From Fidelibacterota bacterium (GTDB lineage: Bacteria; Fidelibacterota; Marinisomatia; Marinisomatales; UBA1611), in contig JABHUQ010000019.1 of NCBI GenBank assembly GCA_018658715.1, forward strand, positions 1 to 46,884: a DNA stretch of 46,884 nucleotides. Reading direction: 5' to 3'. The translations under genes were made by a program, and so were the position numbers. This document shows positions 6,892 through 24,631 of this stretch, piece by piece. How positions within the stretch are numbered: the first letter of the stretch is position 1; every line of letters starts with the position of its first letter. The notes under the pieces were generated by a model that was not told where the DNA came from, did not search any database, and saw nothing but the letters and a program-made list of their open reading frames with translations.

Positions 6892-7005
6892 TATATCCTG
6901 TATCTATTGTGTTAAAATTTGATATGAAAATTTATCTATAGTTAATATTCAGAAAAAGCTAGAATAAAAAATGGTAAAAAAAGTTTAAAATGGTCACTTT
7001 TCCAG

Positions 7006-7035
7006 TTGCGTAAAATAGGTATGATCCTCTATACT
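7006..7035 (+). promoter_or_regulatory. Possible sigma-70 promoter for a short transcript before ssrA
   Basis: TTGCGT (7006-7011) and TATACT (7030-7035) are separated by 18 bases. A start near 7042 would give an RNA of about 130 bases ending at the terminator at 7139-7176. The match is fair, and AT-rich sequence gives such matches by chance. Confidence 0.35.
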
Positions 7036-7041
7036 TTATTA

Positions 7042-7176
7042 GCCTCTTTTGGCGAAAAATTTTTGACAAAGAAATTTTTTAAAAGGGGCTGACAAATGAA
7101 TCAATATTTGGCTGAAAGAGCCGAATGAATCGTAAGTTAAGGCTTCAGGTTGGCGTTTGAAGCCTTTTCTTTTTAT
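7042..7176 (+). ncRNA. Candidate small RNA or leader with a 10-codon frame, upstream of ssrA
   Basis: This covers most of the 312-base gap between the YgjV-like gene and tmRNA. AGGGG stands seven bases ahead of ATG 7096. The frame reads MNQYLAERAE and stops at 7128. A hairpin (TTTGGCT, loop GAAAG, AGCCGAA, 7107-7125) lies inside that frame. A terminator hairpin follows at once. The layout fits a leader peptide with attenuation, or an independent small RNA. No known RNA family was recognised. Confidence 0.35.
7139..7176 (+). terminator. Terminator hairpin 28 bases before tmRNA
   Basis: AAGGCTTCA (7139-7147) pairs with TGAAGCCTT (7158-7166), followed by TTCTTTTTAT. There is no annotated gene for it to end, other than the candidate short transcript. 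A possible promoter for ssrA, TTTGAA (7156-7161) with TATATT (7180-7185) and an 18-base spacer, overlaps it. Confidence 0.7.
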
Positions 7177-7203
7177 ATGTATATTTTAATGATTTTTGAC
7201 AAT

Positions 7204-7556
7204 GGGGGCGATCGGTTTCGACGGGATATGAGAAATGCTGGATTGCATGCGGAGGATGTCAGTTCCCTCCATAATCATCTGACAAAACACATAAATGCCG
7301 ATTATGGCTACATGGCTGCAGCTTAACTGATGCAACCCGTCCCGAGCTTGATGCGTCTATGGTCTTGCTCAGGGGCGTCACCTACATAGACTAGTTCCAA
7401 AACATGTTTGCGGTTTTGGAATGAAATTTAGCAAGCTGGTTCTTCCTGCTTTTTGTCGCTGATAAATGGAAGAATAAGATTCCAATCGGACGACTAAGCA
7501 TGTAGACGTCTTTCATCCCTCTATTTCGGACGGGAGTTCAATTCTCCCCGCCTCCA
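7204..7556 (+). ncRNA. ssrA: Transfer-messenger RNA (tmRNA)
   Basis: Rescues stalled ribosomes and tags the unfinished peptide for proteolysis. The 5' end GGGGGCGATCGGTTTCGACG is the tmRNA signature. GGGGGCG (7204-7210) pairs with CGCCTCC (7549-7555) as the acceptor stem, and A7556 is the discriminator. The T arm GGGAG-TTCAATT-CTCCC is present. The full CCA is not encoded. The tag frame reads GCC GAT TAT GGC TAC ATG GCT GCA GCT TAA (7297-7326), giving a likely tag of ADYGYMAAA. The ending AAA differs from the common ALAA. The resume codon is inferred from the reading frame. Confidence 0.95.
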
Positions 7557-7565
7557 CATCATATA

Positions 7566-10214
7566 TTAAAAATACATTTTAACAAAAATTGTAGGAGAGA
7601 ACCCAAGCATTTTAACATTTGTCATAGATGGTTTAGATCCAAAAGGATTTACACGTTTATGGCTAATATTTTGCCTATTATATACATTAAAAATAGATAA
7701 ACCAGTATCCATAGAACGCCCAAACATTGATAACGATTTTGTAATACTCAGATCTAGTCTGTGAATAGGTGGAAGACGCTGTGTGTTTTTATCATTATCA
7801 GAAATAAAAATGGTTTCATCGTCAGAAATAGTCATATTTGATAGATCTGTAAATACAGTGCCCGATGAAAAAATCCAATTTAATGTAATATCTAATGATT
7901 TTATTTTTCCCATGGCAACTAGCTTTAATTCTTGTGTATGATCATGATCAGTCAAATAAGATTGCCCCCCATATAGTTCATCAAAAGAATATGTTGATTT
8001 TCCATAATGATAAGTCACCCAACCATGTATGACCCCTTGTCTCTTATGGAATAGAAATTCTATTCCTGAGCTATTACCATTCCCAAAAAATACATCTGAT
8101 GGGTATGATGCCCTTCGAGTTGTTACAAATGGTGCAGGGGAATTCATTTGATAATAATTAACTAATTCTGTGTATAATTTTTTATATATATCCATATGTA
8201 TTTGGTATGCATCAGTTGACCAATGCATCCCAATATTTGAAAATAGTGCTTCACTTGGTTGAAGCTTGTCATCAGAAAGTGTCCATAATTTTTCACTTCC
8301 ACGACTACTTAAATCACTTTGAAATTGATGAATATATTGTACTGCTTTTCCAATAGATGCTTCAATTCTGTATAGGGGTGTAATATGTGTTCGAAAAGAT
8401 ATTCGAGGTTCTATTATGAATGAATCTTGAGCATGGTCTGAATTTAGTCTTAACCCAATTGTGGCCACATTCGTAGGCGATATAGACCATTTATCTTGGA
8501 TGTAGCTTGTTGATATTCCCATAATATTATGTTGATCAACAATATTTATAAAAGCATCATTATTCATTTTTTGAGTTAATAAGGTTGATTTATAAAAATT
8601 ATTTTCAATTCCGAAATTAAGTTGATGTGATTCATTAATAACCCAATGATGATTCATTCGTAATGTTTGATCTAGGAATGAATTACTTTCATAAGACTTT
8701 TGAAGAATAACAGATGAGTGTGGATCGATAGGTACCTGACTAATGCTGAAAATGCTATTATATTGGCTTTGAGATATGCTGAAATCAGACTCAAAGTATG
8801 GATTCCAATGATGTGCCCACTGGATTGATATTCCCTGATTATTCCAATCCGTGGATTCTTCTGTTTTAACTGAATCATAAGTCCATAATTCAGAGAACCC
8901 AATAAAGGATCTAAATTCATCGATTTTATCCTGGCCAATTAAAAATGAAATAGAAATACGATCTGATGATGTAGGTAAAAATGATATTTTATTATTCAAA
9001 TCAAAAAAATCGAACTGAGGTAAATAAGATGTTTTTTTAGTTTCATCACCTTTTACAGATTCACTCAATAAGTTAAAACGATCATCTCCAGTCACAAATG
9101 ATTGAATGGATTGATATAAAGATGATTCAAAATATTTAGAATTAGAATTTCGTGCAGAAATAGCCCAACTCCCATTCCATGGCAATGGGCGTTCATATGA
9201 AAATCCAGAACTTAGAATATTTATAAATACAGATAATTTTTGACGATTTACATTCCCCTTTTTTCCTGACATAGAAATAACACTGGATAGTTTACCTCCA
9301 TATTTAAGAGGTATATGTCCTTTATACACCTGAACATCTTTAATAGCATCTGAATTAACTGCGCTAAAAAATCCAAAAAAATGATCTGGTTTATAAATCG
9401 GAATGCCATCTAATAATATCAAATTTTGATCGGGAGTACCCCCTCGGATGAATAAATCTGCAGTACCTGATGTTCCCATCTGAATGCCAGGCAATAATTG
9501 CAATGATCGAAAAATATCTGTCTCGCCTAAATGGGGGAGAGCAGAAATATGTCGAGGTAAAAAGGCCACTTGACCTTGCCCAGATGATTGATCCATAAAA
9601 TCAAGATTTTCTCCTTGAATCTCCACACGATCTCCGGTTAATACTTTTGGGCGTAAAAGAATAGAAATAGACTTGGTTTCATCTAAAGGAAAAAATAATG
9701 GTTTATATGATGTTTCATATCCAATATATGAAATCTGTAATGTACATACCTTTGTTGGAATATTAACCAGAGTGAATCGTCCATCCTGATTAGTCACATC
9801 CCCCACAAATTTATTTTGTATAAATACATTTGCAAAAGGAACTGATTCTCCTGTGAGCGAATCTGAAATAATGCCATTTATAGAAAATTGAAAATAGCGT
9901 GGTTTATAAATAGTGAATTGTTGTCCAGTTTTTTCCCATGAAAGGAGTGTTCCCCTAAGTATAATATCTAGAGCTTCTTCTGACGTACATTCATTACATT
10001 GAGCTGATATATATGTTGAATCAACTCCCCGATCAGAGAAAATGATAGATAAATTCTCTTCTTGAATCAGCTGAATTAATACATCACGTAGTGATTGCTC
10101 TTTAAAGGAAAAGGAAAAGAAATCTTCTGCCTGTAAAGGAAGCCAACACAGGGCTAAAAGAATTAAAGATGTAAGAGAAGGACGCTTACTGGATGATACA
10201 GGTACGGGATTCAC
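7566..10214 (-). CDS. TonB-dependent receptor with N-terminal STN signalling domain (FecA-type transducer)
   Basis: Outer membrane receptor that both takes up a ligand and reports its presence to a FecR/ECF sigma pair. Order of parts: signal peptide (about 1-29); STN domain (about 30-105), starting FSFSFKEQSLRDVLIQLIQE; a carboxypeptidase-regulatory-like domain (about 110-195, with DGRFTLVNIP and YIGYET); a plug (about 215-320) with SLQLLPGIQMG, LFIRGG and LILLDGIPIY; and a barrel ending in FVKMYF. At 882 residues it is typical. The start is GTG 10214, inside the 3' end of the fecR-like gene (29-base overlap), which suggests translational coupling. No SusD gene follows. The ligand is not known. 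Confidence 0.9.
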   Translation of the reverse strand: MNPVPVSSSKRPSLTSLILLALCWLPLQAEDFFSFSFKEQSLRDVLIQLIQEENLSIIFSDRGVDSTYISAQCNECTSEEALDIILRGTLLSWEKTGQQFTIYKPRYFQFSINGIISDSLTGESVPFANVFIQNKFVGDVTNQDGRFTLVNIPTKVCTLQISYIGYETSYKPLFFPLDETKSISILLRPKVLTGDRVEIQGENLDFMDQSSGQGQVAFLPRHISALPHLGETDIFRSLQLLPGIQMGTSGTADLFIRGGTPDQNLILLDGIPIYKPDHFFGFFSAVNSDAIKDVQVYKGHIPLKYGGKLSSVISMSGKKGNVNRQKLSVFINILSSGFSYERPLPWNGSWAISARNSNSKYFESSLYQSIQSFVTGDDRFNLLSESVKGDETKKTSYLPQFDFFDLNNKISFLPTSSDRISISFLIGQDKIDEFRSFIGFSELWTYDSVKTEESTDWNNQGISIQWAHHWNPYFESDFSISQSQYNSIFSISQVPIDPHSSVILQKSYESNSFLDQTLRMNHHWVINESHQLNFGIENNFYKSTLLTQKMNNDAFINIVDQHNIMGISTSYIQDKWSISPTNVATIGLRLNSDHAQDSFIIEPRISFRTHITPLYRIEASIGKAVQYIHQFQSDLSSRGSEKLWTLSDDKLQPSEALFSNIGMHWSTDAYQIHMDIYKKLYTELVNYYQMNSPAPFVTTRRASYPSDVFFGNGNSSGIEFLFHKRQGVIHGWVTYHYGKSTYSFDELYGGQSYLTDHDHTQELKLVAMGKIKSLDITLNWIFSSGTVFTDLSNMTISDDETIFISDNDKNTQRLPPIHRLDLSITKSLSMFGRSMDTGLSIFNVYNRQNISHKRVNPFGSKPSMTNVKMLGFSPTIFVKMYF

Positions 10215-11064
10215 GATTGAATTTATAATCCCGCTGTGTTAAAAACGAGATTGCACTTAATACAGTTTGTAAATCATTTGTATTAATAACACCCGTAATT
10301 GAAAGGGTGCGCAAACTTGGATCTTCAAATTCAAAAGTTATATCGAATAATCGTTCAATTTCTTCTGTGGCTTCCACTAGATTAGTTTCTTGGAAAATAA
10401 GTTTATTGTTTAACCAAGCTGGAAAATCATTATATGGCAAATTCGTTGGAGTGACTGGAATACTATGTTTATTCAATTTTAAGAATTGCCCAGCCTTGAG
10501 TTTAAATACTTTATTTTTAGATGAGACAGAAACAATCCCTGTTTTTACACCCACTTCAAAATTATCGCCTCTAGATTTCACATTAAAAGACGTTCCTAAA
10601 ACAGATACATGTCCGAATGATGTTTCAATAATAAAGGGGACAGAGCTATTTTCAATAGAGAAAAATGCTTCTCCCTCTAATTGAATTGTTCTATTATCAG
10701 TGTTAAAATCTTTTTGATATGAAATTTTACTATCATTATTTAATTGTATATGGGAACCATCACTTAATTCAATATTTTCTATTTCAGCATTTTGAGTTAA
10801 AACAGATGTTGTATTTAAATATCGAACGGCCATGGGGGTTGATATGATTAAAAAGAGAGCCATTGCACTTGCAAAAACCAATTTTGGTTTTAATAAAGAA
10901 AATTGTAAACCCATTATTTTTTGTTTAGGTTCAATTTCCATGTCTGCAATGGTCATTCTTTGCTCCAATTGATCCCATGCTTCATCTAATGATGGAGGTG
11001 TTGGCAAATCAACTTGAGAACTTAATTTCCAAATTTTCTTTAAATCTTTTTCTTTGATATTCAT
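10186..11064 (-). CDS. FecR-family anti-sigma factor / signal transducer
   Basis: Inner membrane protein that relays the signal from the STN domain of the receptor to the ECF sigma factor. The cytosolic N-terminus (about 1-58) is expected to bind sigma. One membrane helix spans about 61-80 (KLVFASAMALFLIISTPMAV). The periplasmic FecR domain includes IELSDGSHIQLNNDSKISY, IQLEGEAFFSIE and VSVLGTSFNVKSR. The DUF4974-like C-terminal part (LIFQETNLVEATEEIERLF, about 224 on) is the usual STN-like end. It lies between the sigma gene (92-base gap) and the receptor gene, the standard order for this set. Confidence 0.92.
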   Translation of the reverse strand: MNIKEKDLKKIWKLSSQVDLPTPPSLDEAWDQLEQRMTIADMEIEPKQKIMGLQFSLLKPKLVFASAMALFLIISTPMAVRYLNTTSVLTQNAEIENIELSDGSHIQLNNDSKISYQKDFNTDNRTIQLEGEAFFSIENSSVPFIIETSFGHVSVLGTSFNVKSRGDNFEVGVKTGIVSVSSKNKVFKLKAGQFLKLNKHSIPVTPTNLPYNDFPAWLNNKLIFQETNLVEATEEIERLFDITFEFEDPSLRTLSITGVINTNDLQTVLSAISFLTQRDYKFNRESRTCIIQ

Positions 11065-11156
11065 AATGTCTATTTATTATTTAAATAGATGGAGGGACAC
11101 CCAAAGGTGCTTCTTCCCCGCATCTGGTATAAAAACGATAAAAGGTTTCATTTTAC

Positions 11157-11702
11157 TCATAAATATTTCTTTAAATGTTTTCTCAAAATTTTAAGGGCTC
11201 GGTAGATTTGATTTTCAACAGTGCGAACAGATAAATCGAGTATAGCTGCAATTTCTGGATTTGATTTTCCTTCGATTCTGCTCAAGATAAAAATATTTCT
11301 ACATTTATTTGGGAGATAGTTATTAATGACTTCTTGAATTTCTTCCTCAAGGGCTGAAGCATGTGTATTGACTTCTGGGTTATCCAACTCTGAATGCCCA
11401 TGAATTGGAATAAAGTCTTCATGCCGATGTTTTACATTTTCATGTCGAAAATAATCATAGCATAAGTTGGAACTAATACGAGCTATGAGTGAAAAGAATG
11501 ATTTTTTAGGTTGGAGGGATTCACGAGTTTTCCAAACCCGTAAAAAAGTATCTTGAGTTATATCTTCGGCCAAATCATTATCTTTGACTCGATAAAATAC
11601 AAATCGAAATAATGTATCATGGTATAAAGAAAACAAAGTTTTAAAAGCTCCTTTATCAGAGTGTTTTACTTGTTGAAGTAATATGTGTTCTTTTTCAGCC
11701 AT
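11157..11702 (-). CDS. ECF-family RNA polymerase sigma factor
   Basis: Directs RNA polymerase to a small set of promoters when released by its FecR partner. Region 2 spans about residues 24-92, with LAEDITQDTFLRVWK (44-58) as the core-binding and -10 recognition part. Region 4 spans about 122-178, with EGKSNPEIAAILDLSVRTVE forming the helix-turn-helix. The 181 residues match the usual ECF size. It is the first gene of the sigma-fecR-receptor unit and diverges from the surface-protein operon, sharing a 349-base spacer. Control of that operon is therefore plausible but unproven. Confidence 0.95.
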   Translation of the reverse strand: MAEKEHILLQQVKHSDKGAFKTLFSLYHDTLFRFVFYRVKDNDLAEDITQDTFLRVWKTRESLQPKKSFFSLIARISSNLCYDYFRHENVKHRHEDFIPIHGHSELDNPEVNTHASALEEEIQEVINNYLPNKCRNIFILSRIEGKSNPEIAAILDLSVRTVENQIYRALKILRKHLKKYL

Positions 11703-12051
11703 AAAATGAAGTTGTGAATTTAGGACAGATTAAGAATACAATAGAGATGAGAAAAAGAATAAACCCCAAAAATGGAAAAGAAACAAAAGGAGGTAGAAGG
11801 CCTAGGTCTTATTCTCGAGGTTTATTAAAGAATTCGATTACAATTCGTTTAAATAAATGCTAATACTTAAAGTTTTTTAATATTTTTAATAAAAAAATCA
11901 TTCATAATATGAATATGAAAATGCTTGCATCCTTTTTAACAAATCCTAAAGTTTGGCCTGCTAAACTCTGACTTATTTTCCACATACTCGACCTATCGGC
12001 GTTCAGCATTAAAAACGGACAGATACGAGAATCTATTTTCAAATAATTGTT
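11703..12051. promoter_or_regulatory. Divergent promoter region between ECF sigma gene and surface operon
   Basis: 349 bases without a gene. It contains the perfect 13-base palindrome TTCATAATATGAA (11901-11913), a possible rightward promoter TTGCAT (11925-11930) with TAAAGT (11947-11952) and a 16-base spacer, and a near-palindrome AAGGCCTAGGTCTT. Both flanking genes start here on opposite strands, so regulatory sites are expected. The specific elements are unproven. Confidence 0.4.
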
Positions 12052-13047
12052 ATGATTGTTATGATCAAAAAAATAAGAAAAGTTATTATTAATAAAGGGT
12101 TATTGCTTGGGCTTGTTATAGCATCATTTACCCTATCTGGGTGTTCCTTTTCGCTTATGGCGAAATATCCGAGAATTATAACGAATCAAAGAATTCCACT
12201 TGTTTCTATTTCATATGAGTTTGGTGAGATAGAGATGGTGATTCCACTAGAGTATGTTGGTTTAGATCCAGGCAGACTTACATTTGAAGTTTATACAGGT
12301 GATTCTGCATCTCAACAATTATTAGTCTCAGTCACAACAGATCCACCAAATGTAATGCCCTTATTTTTACCTCAGGGTACTTTAGATTTTCAAAATCCAA
12401 ATAATACATTAGTTATAAAAATGTCTAATGAAGATTTTGATCCTTTAACACTTCCATTTACGGGTGTAAAGTTTGGGGAATTAAGGTTGCCACCGATTCT
12501 TATAGAAGAACGACGCCTTATATTTACGGGAAGAGTTCGAGAGAGGTCAGGGGAATCACCCATTCCTGATTTAGATGTATCCATTTTAAACTTTGGTTCT
12601 ATCATAAACACAGTATATACAGATTCTACAGGAAATTATAAATTATCCATTCCAGGTCGATATAAATATGTGGATGATTTATCAATCATCGCTGGTTCGG
12701 ATTACCAATTTGCCCCAGCTAGAAAACGTATTCAGTTACCTCAAACCGAATATATACTTGATATTGGCCCCAGCGCAGAATTAATCTCATTAGGAAATAT
12801 GTATATTATTAAAAAAGATCAGACACATTTCAGATATTTTCCTCACGCAGGCAGTAATAGTTCCATGCTCATTGGAAGAGGGGAAGTTTTAGCTGGACAA
12901 AAAGTAACAGGCGATCGAGTATACGGTTTTATTGAAGCAGAAATAGGGTCAGGAGAATTAATTCTCATCGATGGCTGGGTGGATAAATTGGATTTAAATT
13001 TATTTTTAGATGGTACTTTAAAAGATGCTCATGAAAATAGATATTAA
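12052..13047 (+). CDS. Lipoprotein of unknown function with a transthyretin-like segment and possible SH3-like C-terminus
   Basis: First gene of the five-gene surface operon. The signal peptide ends in TLSGC, with Cys31 (Cys28 if translation begins at the second Met, 12061). No Shine-Dalgarno sequence separates the two starts. The N-terminal half is beta-rich and unrecognised. Residues about 160-235 (FTGRVRERSGESPIPDLDV, then DSTGNYKLSIPG) look like a carboxypeptidase-regulatory/transthyretin-like fold. The C-terminal stretch (about 265-320: RYFPHAGSNSSMLIGRGEVL to GWVDKLDL) has the spacing of bacterial SH3-like domains. Its 3' end overlaps the next gene by 23 bases. A structural or peptidoglycan-contacting role is an inference. 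Confidence 0.7.
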   Translation: MIVMIKKIRKVIINKGLLLGLVIASFTLSGCSFSLMAKYPRIITNQRIPLVSISYEFGEIEMVIPLEYVGLDPGRLTFEVYTGDSASQQLLVSVTTDPPNVMPLFLPQGTLDFQNPNNTLVIKMSNEDFDPLTLPFTGVKFGELRLPPILIEERRLIFTGRVRERSGESPIPDLDVSILNFGSIINTVYTDSTGNYKLSIPGRYKYVDDLSIIAGSDYQFAPARKRIQLPQTEYILDIGPSAELISLGNMYIIKKDQTHFRYFPHAGSNSSMLIGRGEVLAGQKVTGDRVYGFIEAEIGSGELILIDGWVDKLDLNLFLDGTLKDAHENRY

Positions 13048-13513
13048 AAAAATTATTCCATTATTATTAGTTTCCATATTGATAGGACAAGTTCGCCTAT
13101 CTCTCGTGACTATTCCTCGTCCGGCAAATGTATATATAGATGGTGAACAAATTGGACGCACACCTATAGATCAATATAAAATTCGTCCTGGAGAACATCA
13201 AATTCAAATCATTGCAAAAGGATATGCTCCCATTCTATATCCTATGATAATTAATGAATCTAAAGCGGTGAACTTAGAATTTTTCTTAAATCCAGTTTAT
13301 GATATAAAGTTTAAAACAGATCATAAAGATTTAACATTTAAACTCAATAAAGAGCATGAATGGAATAAACAAAAAATAAAACTTCAAATAGAAGCAGGGG
13401 ATCATGAGTTACAGGTGTATAGAAAAGGTGTATTAATTGATACAAGGGGTATAACTGTAGATCAACCGGCAACAATTCGATATCACTTAAATAAAAATCC
13501 AGATGATGATTAA
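13025..13513 (+). CDS. PEGA-domain exported protein
   Basis: Small exported protein. The signal peptide is KKIIPLLLVSILIGQVRLS (about residues 8-26). A PEGA domain follows (about 27-92: VTIPRPANVYIDGEQIGRTP, then RPGEHQIQIIAKGYAP), a beta fold usually found on surface or envelope proteins. The rest (93-162) resembles a second, weaker copy (KIKLQIEAGDHELQVYRKG). Translation starts inside the preceding gene and the stop lies inside the following gene, so the three are almost certainly translated together. The start could be the second Met at 13031. Confidence 0.8.
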   Translation: MLMKIDIKKIIPLLLVSILIGQVRLSLVTIPRPANVYIDGEQIGRTPIDQYKIRPGEHQIQIIAKGYAPILYPMIINESKAVNLEFFLNPVYDIKFKTDHKDLTFKLNKEHEWNKQKIKLQIEAGDHELQVYRKGVLIDTRGITVDQPATIRYHLNKNPDDD

Positions 13514-14414
13514 ATATCGATTAATTAGTTTATTTTTATTATTGCTTTTTTCGTCCACATACGGGAAAAGCAGTTTACTTGTTATTAATTCATTTGGAGA
13601 ATTAGATTCTGCACCAGTTTTTGAAAATGTCCAAGAATCCATTCAAATTAAGTTTGGTTCAAAAATTACTTTTTTCACATCTCAGGTTGAACAAACGATT
13701 ATAGATCTTTTTTCTTCAAATGAAAGTTCTGTAATTGATAAAATGGAAATCATTAGAGAATTAGGGCAAATTCATGAGAGCGATTATATATTGTTTAATA
13801 CATTAAATGAAGAAGGTGATATATCAAAATTAAATGGGCAGCTATATTCTGTGAGATCAGGTGGTATTATACAGGAAAAAAATGTTCAATTTTTACAATA
13901 TAGTGATGGTGTCTTTAATGAACTTCTTCTTTGGGCTGGAGACATTTTCAAAAAAGTTAAAGATGATTTAGTAAGCGCAAGAAAAGAATTATTGTTCCCA
14001 AACCCAGATGAAATTGTTTTAGATAAAACGCCCATGGGAGCCATGATACGTTCTTTTGCGGTTCCTGGTTGGGGTCAATTTTATTCTAAGAATAAACCAT
14101 CAGGAATCATGTGGTCATCTTTTGAAAGTATCCTAATAGCTTCGATATTAGTTAGTTATTCAAATTACAATAAAAGTGTGCAGGATATGAATTTGAGTTT
14201 GGCTCAATATAATGAATCAGAAAATGAAATAGAAATTGCTGAATTAAAAACTCAAGTTGAGAAATACCATTCAGAACATATAAAATTTAATAATTATATA
14301 ATTGGATTTTCTGCAGCAGCAACTTCATCTTGGATGTCAAATGCCATTCATGCTTATTTCACAGGTCCAAGACCCGAATTAAATATTTATGGACCTATTC
14401 TCCCATCTGAATAG
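13503..14414 (+). CDS. Envelope protein with DUF5683-like C-terminal region
   Basis: 303 residues. A signal peptide (LISLFLLLLFSSTYG, about 7-21) is followed by an alpha/beta segment of about 140 residues of unknown fold. Then MIRSFAVPGWGQFYSKNKPS (about 182-201) matches the PGxGQ-Y motif of DUF5683-type membrane proteins. A membrane helix follows (MWSSFESILIASILVSY, about 203-219), then a charged coiled stretch (ESENEIEIAELKTQVEKYH) and a second hydrophobic segment near the C-terminus. It overlaps the PEGA gene by 11 bases and is 12 bases from the next gene. The function is unknown; the context suggests assembly or anchoring of the surface proteins. Confidence 0.7.
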   Translation: MMIKYRLISLFLLLLFSSTYGKSSLLVINSFGELDSAPVFENVQESIQIKFGSKITFFTSQVEQTIIDLFSSNESSVIDKMEIIRELGQIHESDYILFNTLNEEGDISKLNGQLYSVRSGGIIQEKNVQFLQYSDGVFNELLLWAGDIFKKVKDDLVSARKELLFPNPDEIVLDKTPMGAMIRSFAVPGWGQFYSKNKPSGIMWSSFESILIASILVSYSNYNKSVQDMNLSLAQYNESENEIEIAELKTQVEKYHSEHIKFNNYIIGFSAAATSSWMSNAIHAYFTGPRPELNIYGPILPSE

Positions 14415-14426
14415 AGAGCATAAGTA

Positions 14427-14972
14427 GTGGTTAGTATTCAGTTTAGATCGCTTTTTTGGATAGGTGCTCTATTTTTTGTTAGCTGTACAATTTATGAAAT
14501 AGAGCTAGATAACCCAGTTGATTCGGAAGCAGAAAATAATCCTGATCCACCTGCACTTGTTTTTCATCCCAAGGATACTACAGTTTCAGTTAATTCAATA
14601 TTTACATTAAGTGCTCATATTGTTCAGCCGGACACGGGATATGCAGGCGCTCATCTCAATGTGATATATGATTCATCTATCTTGGAGGTAGATACCTTAT
14701 TCCCTGGAATATTTTTTACAGATTCGAGTTCAACAACACCACTATTCGTGTGGGACCAAAACGAAGAATCTGTTGATATATATATTTATTTCTTGGACTC
14801 AAGCATTACATCTTTGAGCGGAACGGGGCATATTGCTGATATACAATTCATTGGAATTTCTGCGGGGAAAACCACTATAGAGTATGACTTAGAATCATGT
14901 GAATTAGTGAGTTCACAAGATGAATCTATGATTATTAATGGGAAGCGAGGTTGTCTCGTTACAGTTCAATGA
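14427..14972 (+). CDS. Cohesin-like domain lipoprotein
   Basis: Small lipoprotein (GTG start, lipobox FFVSC, Cys20) with a single cohesin-type beta-sandwich over about residues 43-180. It shows VSVNSIFTLSAHI, then AGAHLNVIYDSSILEV and GTGHIADIQFIGISAGKTTI, the usual cohesin blocks (G-F/Y-D-P-LEV and G-LA-I-F-a-G). Cohesins bind dockerins, and the next gene carries a dockerin-like segment. Its TGA overlaps the ATG of that gene (ATGA), giving strong coupling. A tether holding the giant protein to the outer membrane is a reasonable inference but untested; many cohesin-like domains outside clostridia have no known partner. Confidence 0.75.
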   Translation: MVSIQFRSLFWIGALFFVSCTIYEIELDNPVDSEAENNPDPPALVFHPKDTTVSVNSIFTLSAHIVQPDTGYAGAHLNVIYDSSILEVDTLFPGIFFTDSSSTTPLFVWDQNEESVDIYIYFLDSSITSLSGTGHIADIQFIGISAGKTTIEYDLESCELVSSQDESMIINGKRGCLVTVQ

Positions 14973-17900
14973 AACACTGGCTTCCAATCCTAATAATCAT
15001 TTCGTCATTTCTTCCATTAAAAGGAGATGTGCTTTTTACAGAATCATTTGATGTAGATGGTGCTTTACCCGCTGAATGGACTACTGATAATGACAATAAT
15101 TGGCAAGTCCAAAGCGGATATGATGGAAATACAACTCCACCAGCACTTTCATTCACATGGTCACCACGAATTTTTGATTATTCAAATGATGTTCAAACAC
15201 CGGATATTGATGTAGGTGATAATGCGGGCGTTTTGATTGAATTTGATTTTGCATTGGATTTTTGGGGTGCATCTGATCATACCAATGGAATGACAATCAG
15301 TTATGACGGGGGAAATGGATGGGTTCCTGTACTTAATTATGAAATTGGTCCCGATGCTGGTTTTGTATCCATTGATAGAAGGACAGAATCATTCACTGCA
15401 GATATCGAATCTGGGAGTGATTTAAAATTAAAGTGGACAGCTTATGGGACAGATTCATATTGGATTGATTCATGGATTATTGACAATGTGAAAATTATTA
15501 CACTTCCACAACTAACCAGTGTTACGATTGAATCCGCAAACGAAGATCCAAGCACAGCTGTAGAAGGAACGAATATTTGGCTTAATTTTATGGCAGATTC
15601 AGATTTGTCTGGAGATCCATATGTTCAAATTAATGGAAATGCCTGTAATATAGATAATTTAGGCGGAACAAATTGGGTAGCATATTATATAGTTCAAGCT
15701 TCTGACCCGGATGGACCCCTCCAATTCACTATTGATTTCACAGATGCAAATGAGGTTGATGGAAGTACGGTAAAACAAACAACCAATGGTTCAAGTGTTG
15801 TAGTTGATAATTCCGAACCCCCATCATTCACAGTTGGCGGAGTAACTGCATTGGGAGGCATTGTTGAAGCTGGGACGTGGGCGAGCACAAATACGGAAGT
15901 CCAATTAGAAGTGAATGTTCCGCAAGATTCTGCAGTTGTGAATTTTGATTATATTGAAGGAAATTCTTTATCATTTGATGGATCCAATGATGAAGTAACT
16001 ATTCCAGCTATTGCTTCATATCAGGTTACAGATGCATTAACCGTTGAAACATGGGTTAAACCAAATTCATGGAGTGACAATGAAGGATTTCTAAATTTTG
16101 CTACAGATAATGGCGGAACAGAAGCTGGGTTTGGATTTGTTTTTTTTGCAACCGGGTGGCGTTTCTATTTAAAAACAACTATCAATTCAATTGATTATGC
16201 GGAGATGGCTGAAACATCCACTCCGGTTGGACAATGGACCCACTTAGCTGCCACGTATGATGGAACTAAAGTTCGCATTTACCGAAATGGGTCGGTGATT
16301 GATTCCACTGATGCTATGGGAAATGTGGAATGGACAGGTGCTCCAGGAAATGTTACTTTAGGTAGTTTTACTAAAGGTGGAACAACGAAATATTTTGATG
16401 GAAATATGGATGATGTTCGATTGTGGAACATTGTTAGATCTGCTGCAGAAATAAAAGCATCAAAGGAAATCACACTTAATGGAGATGAAACAGGATTAGT
16501 GGGATATTGGCAGATTGATGAAACATCTGGCGGAACAACAGTAGATTACACATCAAACAATAATACGGCCACTTTAAATGGAGCATCCTGGGCCAGTGGC
16601 GAATCACCTATTTATTTTCAAGAGCCAGTTTATGATAATACAGTTATTGTTGGATCATTATTTCAAATGCGTACCGAAATTGACGAAAATAGATATGAAG
16701 CTATTGGCCCTCAAATCCCCATTGTGATTGGAGATGTAACATCAGGAACAAAAACCATTACAGCTTCGGCTGTTGATTTCGCAGGCGTCACGGGCTATGC
16801 GCATGGAGGTGTTGGGTCTTTTTCTGCATTATTATTTGATGTAGCTGGAAATTATTCTGAAGGTGATACGAGCGCAACAACCTTAACTATTGATTTAATT
16901 GCAAGTAATCCAAACCCTGTATCTATTTCATCAAATAATACTTTTTCTCATCTGGTATCAGATGGAGATATTATTACCATCACTATGGAATATGATGAAG
17001 ATGTAGAAATTCCGAATGTAACAGTCGAAGGAAATGATAATGCATCAGAAACAGATGAAGGAGGAGAACAATTTTCAGCAACATATATTATAGATGGGTC
17101 AGAATCTGAAGGAAGTATTGATTTTGAAATTACAACTACGGACTATTTAGGGAATCCTGGAACGCATAGCGGCTCAACTAATGGAACATCTGTTAGTTAT
17201 GATCATACAGCGCCTGATGTATCGCCTGTAACAATCATTTCCAATAATCCAGACACACAATGGGCTAAAGTAGGAGATACAGTAAAATTAGATTTCAGTG
17301 GGAATGAAATATTATATGAAACTACGGTTTCCTTAGCCACGTCTTCTATTATTCTTTATGATACATCCGATGTAGCTTATAATGGAGCCAGCGAATGTGT
17401 TGGTGGTGAAATTATTACTGACAATTTAAAACTTTGGCTAGATGCCAATGATGTAGATGGGGATGGAATATCTGAAGGGTTATATGAAGATAATATTGTG
17501 GATGGAGATGTACCACTTTGGGCTGATAAGTCAGGTAATGGTGCAGATGTTATTGAAGAAGCAGGACAAGGAATTCCATCATTAGTGGAAAACCAATTTA
17601 ATGGTCAAGCGGCACTCCGGTTTAATAAAGCAGAAGAAGATATGCTGGTTCACGATTTAGGTGGCAACAAATGGAATGCATCAGAATTTTCCTTATTAAT
17701 TGTATTTCAACAAAATAATACACCTGAAAATTTTGATTCCTTTTTCTCAAATGGAGATATCAATGATAACAATTATTTCCAGATTACGCATAAAACAAAT
17801 GATGGGCATTTTAAGTTTTATAGTGGTGGGGAAATCAATTTTGAACCTTGGGATAATGATTTAAAACTATATGGACTTATTGCGAATACGTCAGGGACAT

Positions 17901-20900
17901 CAACTATTGTTGATGGGAATGTGGCTAATTGGGCTGATATTACAAATGGTCGACAATTCGATAAATATAAAATCAACCGCAATCGATTGAATTTCCAATA
18001 TAATGATTCGTTTATAGCAGAAGTATTATTGTATGACAGAGAATTAACAGAATTGGAATTAACCAAAACATATAAATATTTAGGGAATAAATACGGGCAA
18101 ACATTTACAAATGATACTACGATTGTTCATGGAAATAAAGAAATGGATGCCGATGATCCAGTGGGACCGATTGACATCACTATTCAATATAATGATTGTG
18201 CAGGGAATAGTGGTGTAGAAACAATTGAAACAACAGATGGAAGTTATGTGGTTTTCGACCCAGATCCCCCAGAAGCATTTACTGTTGGCACTGTTGTTTC
18301 GACTGGCGGGAATATAGTTACTAACGCATGGAATTCAACAAATACTGGTTTAGATATTCAAGTTCCTGTTGCGGCGAATGATACTACTTTAAATAATGGA
18401 ACCATCCAGTTATGGGCAAAAGTTGGCACCAACGCTTATGAATTATTTGGAGATCCTGTCACAATTATACCAGATGATTTTGGTACGAATAAAATCATAT
18501 CTCTTTTAGAAACACAAGTAGAAGCTATTACAGGATATGCAGAAGAAGATACTATTTACGTGAAAGCATTTATGACTGATCGGCCGGGGAATGAAACAGA
18601 AAGCACATTAAGCGAAAATACATTAGTTATCGATGAAACAGCACCGACCGTTCTGAGTTCTCATATAGAATCCAATAATGCAGATTCGACCAAAGCTAAA
18701 GTGGATGATGAGATAACACTCACATTTCAAACGAGTGAAATCATCCAATCACCTACGGCAACCATTGCAAGTGGCGATGCAACTATAGCTGATTTGGGGT
18801 CATTCAATTGGTCAGCTGTATATACAATGTTAGAGACAGATGATGAAGGTATTATTGCATTTACAGTAAATGAATTAGTCGATGATCGAGGGAATCCTGC
18901 TGAAGGTTTTGCAGATGCAACGGACGAAAGCGAAGTGGCCTTTGATCGTACAAAACCCAGTATTGATTATGCTCATTTATCAACAAATAATAGTTGGAAT
19001 CAGTCTTGGGCTTTGGAAGGAAATATTGGAAGAATCCAAGCAAATACATCTGAAGATCTTCTTTCTTCTTCATGCACTTTTAATGGGAATGTAACGACTC
19101 TAAATTGGTATAACGCTCAAGAATTTGATGTTGTTTATACGTTCTCAAATTCTGATACTGAAGGGATATTAGTTTTCGAATTGACTTTTATTGATTCTGC
19201 TGGCAATCAAGGAGACACTGTCATCACATCCACAAATAATTCTTATATCATTTTTGATATGACAACGCCTGCTGATTTCACGGTTGGGGATGTAAGCGCT
19301 ACAGGCGGCAATGAGATTGCAACTTTTTGGAATTCTACGAATACAGGAATTGACATACTTGTCCCAATTGATTCCGATTCAACCTTGGATAGTGGTCGTG
19401 TACAAATGTGGGGGAAGGTTGGGAGTAACCCATTTGAATCTATTGGAGATTATGTCTTTATAGAATCAGAAGAAGTGGGAGATATTAAAACCATGTCTCT
19501 TATTGAAGATTCGGTTGAAGCATTGACTGGATATACAGAAGATGATACACTCTTTTTTAAAGCTGTGATTTATGATATTCCCGGAAATGAAACGGAAGGG
19601 TCAACAAGCACCACAATATTATTAATTGATGAAACACCACCTTCATTAATAAGCGCATCCTATGAATCAAATTTTTCTGATTCTTCTCTGGCTACGGTGG
19701 GGCATGTAGTCACTTTGACTTTTGAAACAGATGTAGAAATTCAAACTCCATCTGCAACAATTTCTACACAAAATGCTATCATTTCTGATCTTGGTAGCAA
19801 TCAATGGTCAGCATCATATGAAATGCAAGATAGTGATACCGAAGGTATTATTCCATTCCAAATTGCTACGCTTACAGATTCTAGAGGAAACCCTACGGAA
19901 GGAACCAGTTCCACTACCAATGGGACTATTGTTACTTTTGATAACACAAAACCTACTTTAAGTTCTGTAAATATTGTTTCAAACAATGCCGATACATCAT
20001 GGGCTAAAGTTGGAGACACTATTACAGTGGCATTTAAAGGAAATGAATTATTGATTAACCAAATAGCAACAATTGTTACTCAAACTGCAGCAATCACTTC
20101 TACGGGATTTGCTAATTTTTATGCGCTCAACTTTGATGGGGCGGATGACTATATCACCCTTCCTGATTTTAGTTATTTGGATGATCTATCTTTTAGCGCA
20201 TGGTTTAAGATAGATACTAGGGATACTTGGGAACGGATCTTTGATTTTGGTAGAGGCAGTTCAGGAGATATATTTTTATCAACAAAGGGTAATCGAACTG
20301 GAGGGAATTTAGAGCTAACAATACATCCATTCGGAGAAACCTATACAATCGATCCTGGTGTTACATGCGATGATGATCAATGGCATCATGTAGTATTTAC
20401 CTATGATAAAGGTGGTGTAGGAATGGTATTGTATATAGATGGACAGAATTTGGGGTCAAATGCTTATAATACTTATAGTTTTAGTGATTTTGATAGTGGA
20501 CAGAATTTTCACCTTGGAAAATCAAATTGGAATGATCCATACTACGATGGGGAAATGGATGAAGTGGCAATTTGGGATACAGCCTTATCAGCAGAAGCGA
20601 TTAGTGATCTATATAATGGTCTTAATCCACTAGCTAGTTCTGATAATTATAATGTATCATCTAATTTAATTGGCTATTGGAACTTTAACGAAGGTTCAGG
20701 AAATATGGTTTATGATATATCCGGCAATGGAAACAATGGTACTATCTATGGTGCAGTTTGGACCACCAATCTTCCTCCTAATACAAAGAAATATTATGCT
20801 AAATATCAATTGACAGACACAGATCCAGAAGGAGAAGTCCCTTTTGAAATTGTAGTCACTGATTCAGTAGGCTTAGTCAGTGATCCAGTTATTCAAACAA

Positions 20901-23900
20901 CCGACGAAAGTTTAGTTATTTTTGATCGAACAAAACCATTATTATCCTCAGTTCATTTTGTATCGAATAATGATATGAATGAATCCATTGCCGTTGGTGG
21001 AGATATTGCTACCATGACTTTTGAACCTAATGAACCTATTACTTCTGTGGTACTTACTGTGGCAGAATCAAATGTTCCTGTAATAGAAAATGTAGGAATA
21101 TATACAGGGGAATATACTGTTCTTGGGACAGAACCTTCTGGACCACTTGATTTTTCAATTACCTTTAACGATAGAGCTGGAAATATAGCAGATTCTGTTT
21201 TATCTACAACTGATGGAAGTTTTGTGAGTCACGATGTTGGTCCGCCTGATTTAATTGATGTATCTATTATATCATCCAATACAGATTCGTCTTGGGCAAA
21301 AGTAGGCGATACCATTACTGTTACATTTTCTGGTACAGAAATTTTAGCCAATATTGAATTAACTACTGTTGGAACCATTTCAAGTATAGAAAATCCATCT
21401 GGACTTATTTATTTTGGAACGTACGTGATGCAGGAAACAGATCCGGAAGGTGTCATTTCCTTTTCCATTACATACACAGATTTATCAGGTCAGACCGGAC
21501 CGGATTACAATGCATCTACAAATAACACAGAAGTTCAATTTGATAAAACAGCGCCTGTAGTTACACCAGTAATCCTTGCGTCGGACAATGTATATGGTGA
21601 TTCCTTGGCCGCATTGGGCAGTATTGTAACGTTACAATTTTCTCTCAATGAAGCGATTCGAACCGTTACAACTCATATTGCAAACCAAGATCAAATAGTC
21701 AATTCCAACGGGTTGGATTATGATGCAAGTCATACTTTTTCAGAGTCAGATATGGATGGATGGGTGTCATTTATAATCACTTGCGAGGATTCTGCCGGGA
21801 ATGCACCAGAAAATATTATTTCAACATCAGATGGGTCTGTGGTTCGATTTGACGGAACGCCACCTTTCATGAATAGTGTTACCATATCTTCAAATCATTC
21901 TACTCATGCATCTTTAGCTGGTATAGGAGATGAAATAAAGCTCATCGCAGTTTCAGCAGAATCATTGCGAACTATAACAATTCAAATTGCTGAAAATAAT
22001 CCCGATTCTCAATCGTCTGTAGATTGGACATTAACATCCACTTACACAATACAAGGGACGGAAATCGAAGGGTATATTCCATTTACGATTGATATAATGG
22101 ATTGGGTGGGGAACGAAGGGATTCAAGTTGATTCCACCACAGATGACAGTTATGTCTTTTTTGATATGACGGCTCCAGCCGCTTTTTATTTAGATTCTGT
22201 ATATACAACAGGAGGGACGATATTTTCCGGCTTTTGGAATTCGACAAATTTAGAAATGGTTTTAGATATTCCAATTTCTGAAGATGATGAAACATTAATA
22301 GATGGTTCAGTCCAATCCCAAGTTCGATTTGATAGTGGTAATTTTGTGAATTTGGGCGTATCTAATACAATTGAATCTTTGGGTACGTTACTGGTAAATA
22401 TTTCACGGGAAACTTTTACTTCCATGGATGGCTTTATAGAAAATGGAAATGCTGAATTCACTGCTATCATCCAAGACAAAGCAGGAAATGAAACTACGGG
22501 GACTACTTACAATACGGTTTATCATATTGATGAAACAATTCCAGAACTTTTTGAAGTAACTGTAATATCTAATAATGAACTCAGTTCAAATTGGGCTACA
22601 ATAGGCAATACATTTACCCTTTCTTATACGTCCAGTGAAGGGCTTAATAATCCAACCACACTTATTTTAGAAGATACAATTAATACAACCCAATCTAATA
22701 ATGCAACCATGTGGACGGGGGAACATATACTTTCGGAAATTGATCCTGATGGAATAGTATCGTTTGTTATAACGTACATTGATACAGCTGGAAATAGTGG
22801 GAGTGATATGTCTGAAACAACAGATGGCTCCTTAGTCCAAGTTGATAGAACATCACCCCAAGTATTAAACTTACTTGAAGGGCGCCAAGGCGAAGATATT
22901 ACATATTATAATGAAGGTGATTCATTAACACTCTATTGGGATCAATCCGATGCATCATCTGGAATACAGGAATCTTATTATGCACTGGGCACAGATTCAA
23001 ATTTAACTGATGTTCAAGGATGGACAAATGGGAATACACTTAATTATGGTGGTTGGAATCAATTAAATCTATCCAATGATACTCGATATTTTGGAGGCGC
23101 ATTTGCTCAAGATTCAGCAGGAAATTATTCGGATACCACTTGGGGGAATGGAATTTATATTGATACTCAAATTCCTGACACTGGATTTATTGTTGATGGT
23201 AATTGGATTATGGATGTTGATTATACACCAGATTCATCTCAACTGAGTTATCGATGGGAAAATTTTTCTGATAATGTTGGGCTGGAATATTTCCAATTAG
23301 CCATCGGAATTGATGGGGAACAAGCTAATATTATGCCTTTCACCAATATTGGATTTAGTAACACAGATACCATTACTGGGTTAAGTTTAGGAAGAGATAT
23401 TTTATATACGACCTTTTTAAAGGCAATTGATTCAGCTGGAAATACATCTGAAACTGTAGAAACAGATGGCATTTATTTCGATGATGTTTTTCCAGTGGTA
23501 ACTCAAAAAATGCCTGAAGTGGATTCAAGCCAAGTTGTATCTGTTTTAACGGTTGATACATTAAATATTCAATTTAATAAATTATTGTGGGATTTTAATA
23601 TTTTGGTTACATCCAGTCAGTGGGGAGATGTATCTTATTCCTTAATTCCCACCGATTCATCCATTGTGATTGCATTAGAAGATGTATTACCTAGTTTTGA
23701 TACGATTACTGTAGTTGTGGATTCTGCCATGGCGTATAATTTGTTAACCGTCTCTGATACATTACAATTCTTTAGTGAATTATGGGGCGATTTAAACCAT
23801 GACTTTGCCATTGATGTACAGGATGTAATTGCCTTTAATGACGCTTGGCCTAATGTGGATTTGGCTCCATTTGATGGTACCCCCCCCTATGTTACCCCTA

Positions 23901-24631
23901 GTTTGGATGGTGAAGTGAATTTGAGAGATTTGGCTGCCTTTGGACAAATGTGGAATTGGTACTATCAAGATTATCAACCCGTTCCCGGTGCCATCATGAC
24001 TATGGGAGTACCATTAGAGGCGGTAGCAAGAGTTCAATCGTTAACCATTCAACTCCCGGAAGGAACTACCACTGGACAAATAACATTTTCTGACCCAACA
24101 ATGACAAAAGTAACGATCAAAAATATGAGTGATTTTTCTAATCACATGGTATTAACCCATTATGATTCTACAAAGGGGATTCAATCCACTACATTTTCAC
24201 ATTTACAAAAATCGTCTATAGATTACATTACTTTTTCTTTAGCAGAAGTGGAAGAAGGCATATTCCAAACATCTGTCCTTTATCAATTTTTTGATAGAGA
24301 AGGACAAGCTCTCTCTTCTGGATTTTCAGATTTAGCCTTAAATGTATTGCCGGAGCATTTTGCTGTTCACCCTAACTTCCCAAATCCGTTTAATTCAGAA
24401 ACACGACTAAAAATTGATATTCCTAATAAAGCTATAGGAGATATGAAAATTTATGATATCCTTGGAAGAGAAATATACCATCGTCACTTGGGTGAATTAA
24501 ACGCTGGATTTCATGAAATGAAATGGGATGGAAAAAATACATTTCATGAATCAGTTGGAACAGGAATTTACTTTTTAAAAATCCAAGTGGATCAAGATAT
24601 ATTTATGCAGAAAATGCTTCTATTGAAGTAA
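14969..24631 (+). CDS. Giant T9SS-type surface protein: Ig-like repeats, three LamG-like lectin domains, dockerin-like segment, sorting domain
   Basis: 3220 residues, secreted. The start is taken as ATG 14969 in an ATGA overlap; a TTG 18 bases upstream is in frame but less likely. Order: signal peptide KHWLPILIIISSFLPLKG; a MAM/jelly-roll-like domain (about 20-180); two kinds of Ig-like repeats, twelve of about 103 residues (SNN..SWAKVGDTI..F ... DGS.V.FD.T.P) and four of about 124 (FTVG.V..TGG ... W.STNT); LamG-type lectin domains at about 333-548, 810-1051 and 1718-1938, each inside a repeat; two FN3-like modules (about 2631-2840); a dockerin-like segment (about 2940-3001); and a C-terminal sorting domain (about 3126-3220) starting VHPNFPNPFN and ending YFLKIQVDQDIFMQKMLLLK. 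A glycan-binding adhesin is the likely role. The 3' end overlaps the convergent marC-like gene by 12 bases. Confidence 0.88.
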   Translation: MKHWLPILIIISSFLPLKGDVLFTESFDVDGALPAEWTTDNDNNWQVQSGYDGNTTPPALSFTWSPRIFDYSNDVQTPDIDVGDNAGVLIEFDFALDFWGASDHTNGMTISYDGGNGWVPVLNYEIGPDAGFVSIDRRTESFTADIESGSDLKLKWTAYGTDSYWIDSWIIDNVKIITLPQLTSVTIESANEDPSTAVEGTNIWLNFMADSDLSGDPYVQINGNACNIDNLGGTNWVAYYIVQASDPDGPLQFTIDFTDANEVDGSTVKQTTNGSSVVVDNSEPPSFTVGGVTALGGIVEAGTWASTNTEVQLEVNVPQDSAVVNFDYIEGNSLSFDGSNDEVTIPAIASYQVTDALTVETWVKPNSWSDNEGFLNFATDNGGTEAGFGFVFFATGWRFYLKTTINSIDYAEMAETSTPVGQWTHLAATYDGTKVRIYRNGSVIDSTDAMGNVEWTGAPGNVTLGSFTKGGTTKYFDGNMDDVRLWNIVRSAAEIKASKEITLNGDETGLVGYWQIDETSGGTTVDYTSNNNTATLNGASWASGESPIYFQEPVYDNTVIVGSLFQMRTEIDENRYEAIGPQIPIVIGDVTSGTKTITASAVDFAGVTGYAHGGVGSFSALLFDVAGNYSEGDTSATTLTIDLIASNPNPVSISSNNTFSHLVSDGDIITITMEYDEDVEIPNVTVEGNDNASETDEGGEQFSATYIIDGSESEGSIDFEITTTDYLGNPGTHSGSTNGTSVSYDHTAPDVSPVTIISNNPDTQWAKVGDTVKLDFSGNEILYETTVSLATSSIILYDTSDVAYNGASECVGGEIITDNLKLWLDANDVDGDGISEGLYEDNIVDGDVPLWADKSGNGADVIEEAGQGIPSLVENQFNGQAALRFNKAEEDMLVHDLGGNKWNASEFSLLIVFQQNNTPENFDSFFSNGDINDNNYFQITHKTNDGHFKFYSGGEINFEPWDNDLKLYGLIANTSGTSTIVDGNVANWADITNGRQFDKYKINRNRLNFQYNDSFIAEVLLYDRELTELELTKTYKYLGNKYGQTFTNDTTIVHGNKEMDADDPVGPIDITIQYNDCAGNSGVETIETTDGSYVVFDPDPPEAFTVGTVVSTGGNIVTNAWNSTNTGLDIQVPVAANDTTLNNGTIQLWAKVGTNAYELFGDPVTIIPDDFGTNKIISLLETQVEAITGYAEEDTIYVKAFMTDRPGNETESTLSENTLVIDETAPTVLSSHIESNNADSTKAKVDDEITLTFQTSEIIQSPTATIASGDATIADLGSFNWSAVYTMLETDDEGIIAFTVNELVDDRGNPAEGFADATDESEVAFDRTKPSIDYAHLSTNNSWNQSWALEGNIGRIQANTSEDLLSSSCTFNGNVTTLNWYNAQEFDVVYTFSNSDTEGILVFELTFIDSAGNQGDTVITSTNNSYIIFDMTTPADFTVGDVSATGGNEIATFWNSTNTGIDILVPIDSDSTLDSGRVQMWGKVGSNPFESIGDYVFIESEEVGDIKTMSLIEDSVEALTGYTEDDTLFFKAVIYDIPGNETEGSTSTTILLIDETPPSLISASYESNFSDSSLATVGHVVTLTFETDVEIQTPSATISTQNAIISDLGSNQWSASYEMQDSDTEGIIPFQIATLTDSRGNPTEGTSSTTNGTIVTFDNTKPTLSSVNIVSNNADTSWAKVGDTITVAFKGNELLINQIATIVTQTAAITSTGFANFYALNFDGADDYITLPDFSYLDDLSFSAWFKIDTRDTWERIFDFGRGSSGDIFLSTKGNRTGGNLELTIHPFGETYTIDPGVTCDDDQWHHVVFTYDKGGVGMVLYIDGQNLGSNAYNTYSFSDFDSGQNFHLGKSNWNDPYYDGEMDEVAIWDTALSAEAISDLYNGLNPLASSDNYNVSSNLIGYWNFNEGSGNMVYDISGNGNNGTIYGAVWTTNLPPNTKKYYAKYQLTDTDPEGEVPFEIVVTDSVGLVSDPVIQTTDESLVIFDRTKPLLSSVHFVSNNDMNESIAVGGDIATMTFEPNEPITSVVLTVAESNVPVIENVGIYTGEYTVLGTEPSGPLDFSITFNDRAGNIADSVLSTTDGSFVSHDVGPPDLIDVSIISSNTDSSWAKVGDTITVTFSGTEILANIELTTVGTISSIENPSGLIYFGTYVMQETDPEGVISFSITYTDLSGQTGPDYNASTNNTEVQFDKTAPVVTPVILASDNVYGDSLAALGSIVTLQFSLNEAIRTVTTHIANQDQIVNSNGLDYDASHTFSESDMDGWVSFIITCEDSAGNAPENIISTSDGSVVRFDGTPPFMNSVTISSNHSTHASLAGIGDEIKLIAVSAESLRTITIQIAENNPDSQSSVDWTLTSTYTIQGTEIEGYIPFTIDIMDWVGNEGIQVDSTTDDSYVFFDMTAPAAFYLDSVYTTGGTIFSGFWNSTNLEMVLDIPISEDDETLIDGSVQSQVRFDSGNFVNLGVSNTIESLGTLLVNISRETFTSMDGFIENGNAEFTAIIQDKAGNETTGTTYNTVYHIDETIPELFEVTVISNNELSSNWATIGNTFTLSYTSSEGLNNPTTLILEDTINTTQSNNATMWTGEHILSEIDPDGIVSFVITYIDTAGNSGSDMSETTDGSLVQVDRTSPQVLNLLEGRQGEDITYYNEGDSLTLYWDQSDASSGIQESYYALGTDSNLTDVQGWTNGNTLNYGGWNQLNLSNDTRYFGGAFAQDSAGNYSDTTWGNGIYIDTQIPDTGFIVDGNWIMDVDYTPDSSQLSYRWENFSDNVGLEYFQLAIGIDGEQANIMPFTNIGFSNTDTITGLSLGRDILYTTFLKAIDSAGNTSETVETDGIYFDDVFPVVTQKMPEVDSSQVVSVLTVDTLNIQFNKLLWDFNILVTSSQWGDVSYSLIPTDSSIVIALEDVLPSFDTITVVVDSAMAYNLLTVSDTLQFFSELWGDLNHDFAIDVQDVIAFNDAWPNVDLAPFDGTPPYVTPSLDGEVNLRDLAAFGQMWNWYYQDYQPVPGAIMTMGVPLEAVARVQSLTIQLPEGTTTGQITFSDPTMTKVTIKNMSDFSNHMVLTHYDSTKGIQSTTFSHLQKSSIDYITFSLAEVEEGIFQTSVLYQFFDREGQALSSGFSDLALNVLPEHFAVHPNFPNPFNSETRLKIDIPNKAIGDMKIYDILGREIYHRHLGELNAGFHEMKWDGKNTFHESVGTGIYFLKIQVDQDIFMQKMLLLK
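15966..16612 (+). other. LamG-like domain 1, inserted in a type B repeat
   Basis: It begins SLSFDGSNDEVTIPAIASY and includes VETWVKPNSW, GQWTHLAATYDGTKVRIYRN, MDDVRLWNIVRSAAEI and GLVGYWQIDETSGG, the standard LamG blocks. The type B repeat resumes after it at DNTVIVGSLFQMRTEI. Confidence 0.85.
17395..18121 (+). other. Concanavalin A-like domain 2, inserted in a type A repeat
   Basis: It includes LKLWLDANDVDGDGIS, PLWADKSGNGADV, QAALRFNKAEED and FIAEVLLYDRELTELELTKT, blocks of LamG/ConA-like lectins. The host repeat opens with SNNPDTQWAKVGDTVKLDF and closes after the domain with TTDGSYVVFDPDPP. Confidence 0.8.
20120..20780 (+). other. LamG-like domain 3, inserted in a type A repeat
   Basis: It begins YALNFDGADDYITLPDFSYL and includes DDQWHHVVFTYDKGG, GEMDEVAIWDTALSAE and LIGYWNFNEGSGN. 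The repeat opening is SNNADTSWAKVGDTITVAF before it and the repeat ending resumes at KYYAKYQLTDTDPEGEVPFE. Confidence 0.85.
23786..23972 (+). other. Dockerin-like segment of the giant protein
   Basis: The first half GDLNHDFAIDVQDVIAFNDA has Asp, Asn, Asp and Asp at the calcium-loop positions 1, 3, 5 and 12. The second half PSLDGEVNLRDLAAFGQMW keeps Asp-Gly at 5-6 and Asp at 12 but lacks Asp at 1, so it is the weaker site. Two such halves about 40 residues apart make a type I-like dockerin. Confidence 0.75.

Follow-up and report, generated by a model that had tools for sequence, protein, structure and literature searches.

The locus described here raises the question of whether a small lipid-anchored protein resembling a cohesin and the giant surface protein encoded directly after it, which carries a dockerin-like segment, constitute a matched pair in which the former tethers the latter to the cell, as the initial annotation of this DNA had suggested. 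The window—the whole stretch of 46,884 nucleotides that was analyzed—is contig C68 of a 2.46-Mb genome, and the genomes with the same operon bear the names Candidatus Neomarinimicrobiota or Marinimicrobia. The Neomarinimicrobiota (SAR406) occur widely, and little is known of their surface biology.

Organization and conservation of the operon

The five genes, here designated A through E, span positions 12052–24631 on the + strand and overlap or touch one another: A (12052–13047) overlaps B (13025–13513), which in turn overlaps C (13503–14414); a gap of 12 bases separates C from D (14427–14972); and an ATGA at 14969–14972 is common to the end of D and the start of E (14969–24631). As the start codon of E we took the ATG inside that ATGA, at 14969; the listing of open reading frames extends the frame to a TTG at 14951. 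Upstream of the operon and divergent from it, at 7566–11702 of the window, are encoded an ECF sigma factor, a FecR-type anti-sigma factor, and a TonB-dependent receptor with an STN domain.

The five-gene order proved to be conserved in relatives: the full sequence A-B-C-D-E is kept in orthologues, while the C-D-E portion recurs in paralogues such as that on contig C93 of the same genome and in distant families of the phylum Neomarinimicrobiota, a short overlap of the D and E reading frames being frequent. Relatives with the same operon were retrieved from genome contigs with an alignment of closer sequences, the single window protein as query having given no match. A chimeric assembly is unlikely, because many independently assembled genomes contain the first part of the operon, genes A to D, among them one (L138) with the single-cell-style isolate name AG-404-J18. 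A phage origin of the cassette was likewise dropped, because no relative of D was found in viral contigs.

The product of gene A is a lipoprotein with the lipobox LSGC, of which G30 and C31 are invariant in 12 orthologues, and it matches CarboxypepD_reg weakly; the SH3-like label previously attached to that gene gained no support from profile searches, the tail having been seen by eye only. The PEGA assignment of gene B, by contrast, held, the product being a secreted PEGA-domain protein (PF08308, 53.6 bits). Gene C, described earlier as DUF5683-like, encodes an N-terminal LpoB/CsgG-like domain followed by a DUF5683 membrane domain, which falls just under the cut-off in the window protein and is present in 19 of 19 relatives; an LpoB/CsgG match was found in three of these, and a profile search of C against the PDB gave LpoB at an E of 0.017. 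B and C are fused in L053/L139, and PEGA-like stretches occur inside C in several distant lineages. At L078:1870-6009 a 1379-aa ORF, which a similarity search matched to E, has a whole C protein as its C-terminal part and is followed directly by D.

The cohesin lipoprotein

Gene D encodes a single lipid-anchored cohesin, as the earlier description of a lipid-anchored cohesin-like protein had anticipated. The window protein scores 22.8 bits against PF00963 (Cohesin; cut-off 24.1) and 25 bits with its neighbours in frame, and 28 of 39 D relatives match that family, the best at 7e-11. The AF2 model of D (pLDDT 85.8, from 39 aligned sequences) has the nine-stranded jelly-roll of the cohesins, and a Foldseek search with that model against the PDB returned cohesins in all 47 best matches (best E 4.7e-11, TMt up to 0.78). 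The family profile, too, retrieved cohesins from the PDB, at 1.2e-8 or, with a broader alignment, at 3.2e-15. The lipobox Cys20 is invariant in the 39 sequences, and the protein is often longer in distant families of the phylum.

The giant protein and its C-terminal modules

Gene E encodes a surface giant of 3220 aa, composed of LamG_3 and Ig-like repeats, a dockerin-like module (hereafter Edoc), a further module that we call X, and a type IX secretion system (T9SS) tail, all in the + strand. The LamG content noted at the outset was confirmed as two stretches of LamG_3 (PF13385; whole-protein E 2.6e-55), the best of which lies at 20135–20605, corresponding to aa 1729–1885 of the TTG-start ORF. 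The initial annotation had missed the tail, a T9SS type A C-terminal sorting domain at 24374–24628 that scores 39.9 bits against TIGR04183 (cut-off 23) and also matches PF18962 and FlgD_ig. The genome moreover encodes the translocon, with SprA at 733 bits and ten PorV-family proteins over the cut-off, so that E, having the sorting domain in a genome with the export machinery, is a T9SS type A cargo. T9SS-tail matches occur in 82 places of this genome, and only two of its proteins carry Edoc.

The complete E proteins of our first alignment all share an Ig-like stretch, an Edoc of about 62 residues, the X beta-sandwich, and the tail. Whereas this Edoc-X-tail portion is constant, the payload upstream differs between cassettes (LamG, fn3, PKD, BNR), as would be expected of an anchoring or sorting unit. 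No enzyme or catalytic domain was found on E in the profile search of the window protein, and a Foldseek search with the whole C-terminus of E was uninformative, giving long, mixed alignments.

Edoc, at about 23780–23965, is a duplicated F-hand of some 62 residues upstream of the T9SS tail; its model contains two helices, and it presents the two tandem F-hands of a type I dockerin. In an alignment of 38 sequences each half closes with D-[LIV]-x-x-[FL]-x-x-x-W, the second as MWxW and with G often at its position 13. The first calcium loop is complete (D1 in 37/38, N/D3 in 33/38, D5 in 32/38, and D12 in 38/38), whereas the second keeps D5, D/N9, and D12 and lacks the acidic positions 1 and 3, so that in these 38 sequences the two 12-residue loops are not both complete. 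Against the Pfam dockerin family PF00404, none of the 38 reaches the cut-off (best E 0.024), the window Edoc scoring 12.6 bits against a cut-off of 22.9. The 38-member profile, run against the whole PDB, nevertheless matches mainly dockerins (best E 5.6e-4), and hhalign aligns Edoc with the canonical dockerins of the same genome at a probability of 91. Since the scores stay below the Pfam cut-off while the profile and hhalign point to dockerins, we call Edoc, as judged from its sequence, a divergent dockerin-like family and not a member of PF00404. The dockerin-like segment recognized initially thus stood as dockerin-like, in view of its conserved repeats and of the PDB matches of its family, though not as a canonical dockerin.

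The X module (23975–24373), a beta-sandwich according to DSSP of the model, comes immediately after Edoc in all complete E proteins inspected. In the window protein X matched 0 Pfam families, and hhalign with D gave a probability of 13; a reading of X as a clear cohesin was not supported in that protein. Several relatives provide weak matches: in L155, X was hit by the D model (6e-7) and by PF00963 (1.1e-4), and in L168 by PF00963 (1e-4). X is therefore probably, to go by these relatives, a divergent cohesin-like domain.

Apart from the operon, nine canonical dockerin matches are found elsewhere in the genome, whose cohesin matches number three, all weak and each a single cohesin. One polypeptide on contig C14 of this genome, G000 (L015:6778-10365), carries one after another a canonical dockerin, a stretch with a weak score for the cohesin family PF00963 (19.1 bits), and a T9SS tail. 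Six other proteins of the genome, on contigs C38, C63, C106, C71, C61, and C51 (L004–L007, L011, L012), end at a canonical dockerin or at most about 15 residues from it, with no T9SS tail after.

Distribution of the cohesin and the dockerin-like module

That a cohesin gene and a dockerin-like gene are paired in one operon, as had been proposed from the window, could be verified at two levels. In this genome there are two D matches and two Edoc matches, with a D gene directly preceding the gene of each Edoc protein (C68 and C93); throughout the phylum the C-D-E trio recurs. Reading through 62 D loci, we found an Edoc protein downstream in about 37, while about 18 reach the contig end and about 7 (L080, L085, L122–L124, L126, and L127) have no Edoc protein in the stretch fetched; at L080, D is followed by a T9SS-tail protein in which no Edoc was detected. 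C lies directly upstream of D in 58 of the 62 loci.

Among 220 genomes of the phylum, 97 have both D and Edoc, 18 D only, 25 Edoc only, and 80 neither, a co-occurrence with a Fisher p of 2e-20, uncorrected for phylogeny. Genomes with Edoc and no D numbered 31 at the first count and, with a better D model and a threshold of E<=1e-5, 25, one of those hidden initially being G043, whose divergent D is located two genes before E; in the near-complete G076 (95%, 2 contigs), Edoc is present and D was not detected. The D-Edoc gene pair is a real unit. Edoc proteins outnumber D in L077 and G098. At L077, two tandem Edoc giants (6558-12566 and 12598-18018) stand behind one D gene, so that one cohesin may serve several cargoes. 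L084 (G056) and other f15 genomes, of 0.7–1.0 Mb, retain a D-Edoc pair, frequently also encoding a further Edoc protein that lacks its own D. In three other genomes an Edoc protein is directly followed by a gene for PorX, the T9SS response regulator (L160:4642-6201, L168:4967-6526, and L172:4057-5613; NF052313 over 600 bits, cut-off 300); this Edoc subgroup was not seen beside D.

The distance matrices of D and Edoc correlate with a Mantel r of 0.79 and those of D and C with an r of 0.84; since the former is no higher than the latter, co-inheritance suffices to explain the correlation, and we rejected the mirror-tree comparison as evidence that D binds Edoc. Given C, the partial correlation is 0.36 for D-Edoc and 0.62 for D-X.

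Proposed mechanism and alternatives

The reading that we favour, and consider reasonably probable from these sequences, is that the cassette builds and tethers a single giant, with the lipoprotein D as a socket holding the T9SS-exported E by its Edoc. The signal peptide of E would take it across the inner membrane, and its C-terminal tail would direct it across the outer membrane via the type IX system. There D, presumably anchored on the outside of that membrane, would capture it with its single cohesin by the Edoc just ahead of the tail. Because this capture would take place near the C-terminus of E, that end would be held at the membrane, and the variable repeats—LamG and Ig here; fn3, PKD, and BNR in relatives—would point outward. 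C, the PEGA protein B, and the lipoprotein A might act as envelope assembly factors. That E would serve as an adhesin is plausible. The cohesin character of D, the dockerin matches of Edoc, the exact pairing of their genes in this genome, their co-occurrence across the phylum, the constant Edoc-X-tail portion, and the T9SS of this genome favour the socket. Against it count the genomes with Edoc and no detected D, G076 among them, those with more Edoc proteins than D, the T9SS-tail protein with no detected Edoc that follows D at L080, the low Pfam score and incomplete second calcium loop of the window Edoc, distance correlations no greater than co-inheritance gives, and the chance that Edoc has X as its partner.

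Three other readings have to be weighed against this socket. A pairing in cis is a live rival because E carries the weakly cohesin-like X beside its Edoc: the two might pair within one chain or between neighbouring E molecules, forming a fibre or a coat that D would cap, nucleate, or anchor via X or another site. The invariable position of X directly after Edoc, the weak cohesin likeness in L155 and L168, the same order of dockerin, weak cohesin match, and T9SS tail in the C14 protein with its canonical dockerin, and the higher partial correlation of D with X than with Edoc all suit such a pairing; yet the X of the window matches no Pfam family and aligns with D at a probability of 13, and it is D that is the clearest cohesin and whose gene overlaps E, for which reasons we hold the Edoc-X pairing to be unlikely.

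D might otherwise reside in the periplasm, where, together with C and the PEGA protein B, it would hold E or pilot it ahead of its export by the T9SS. C and D being the tightest gene pair, C having an LpoB/CsgG-like domain, and the sequence not telling the membrane side of D, this location has some appeal, but cohesin-dockerin contacts are usually very tight (PMC9705933), which property suits anchoring better than transient piloting, and we rate a periplasmic role as slightly more doubtful than the pairing in cis. Least probable of all, in our estimation, is a co-expressed envelope programme without direct contact between D and E, in which D would have another ligand: a glycan, LPS, or dockerins encoded elsewhere in the genome. 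The distance correlations that do not exceed co-inheritance, the nine canonical dockerins with few cohesins to bind, and the 25 genomes in which Edoc occurs without a detected D would agree with that programme; the exact two-for-two pairing among 82 T9SS-tail matches in this genome and the phylum-wide adjacency of D and Edoc proteins speak against it.

The original surface-tether interpretation is retained as regards the paired genes, the idea of a tether, and the conservation of the operon, two of the outcomes that were to overturn it, a lack of profile matches and a separation of the two genes in relatives, being excluded; it must be tempered in that the dockerin is divergent, the giant is a T9SS cargo, and the cis rival is live. 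Extended to the Neomarinimicrobiota at large, the socket reading would imply dedicated giant T9SS cargoes with exchangeable payload, held non-covalently through a new dockerin family and a socket formed by the cohesin lipoprotein, whether alongside sortase-made LPS attachment or instead of it; this generalization we advance tentatively. Roughly half of the phylum genomes that were searched, some of 0.7–1.0 Mb among them, keep the cassette, which points to a core surface structure. The cassette predicts a specific protein pair, suggests a non-covalent anchoring of T9SS cargo, and offers candidate orthogonal cohesin-dockerin pairs, while Edoc represents a divergent dockerin-like family that escapes current models.

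Comparison with known systems

In our literature search we did not find cohesin, dockerin, and Marinimicrobia mentioned together. With the clostridial and ruminococcal cellulosomes (types I–III) the cassette shares the cohesin fold and profile, the dockerin-like duplication, and, as proposed here, surface attachment; it differs in that each D has a single cohesin, E yielded no catalytic domain in the profile search, and the anchor is a lipid in a Gram-negative envelope. As no multi-cohesin scaffoldin was found in this genome, only the three single-cohesin matches, and no enzyme on E, the cassette is not a cellulosome.

In the Cloacimonadota, a multi-cohesin scaffoldin of 'Ca. Stygibacter' bears a T9SS-type C-terminal domain and the enzymes bear dockerins (PMC8542988). 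There, as here, cohesins and dockerins are joined with a T9SS-type surface attachment in a non-clostridial phylum, but the arrangement is the opposite, since here dockerin and sorting tail are both on the cargo, and a small lipoprotein provides the cohesin. In the T9SS of the Bacteroidota, type B CTD proteins are reported to be held by PorP-like proteins (PMC9143113). In purpose the two systems resemble each other, a partner protein keeping a T9SS cargo at the surface, as D would do here; they differ in that the proposed partner of E is a lipoprotein with a cohesin and the tail of E matches the sorting model of type A.

In Archaeoglobus fulgidus a cohesin and a dockerin bind each other, and this pair has served as a tether on the surface of E. 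coli (PMC9705933). That cohesin, like D, is stand-alone and non-cellulosomal, and its structure, 2xdh, aligns with D at a TMt of 0.78; the archaeal system has neither a lipoprotein nor a T9SS, and the Edoc described here is divergent, with one complete calcium loop. In A. fulgidus, too, a cohesin gene is the neighbour of a gene coding for both modules. By analogy, we infer that D and Edoc might work in the manner of non-cellulosomal pairs such as that of A. fulgidus.
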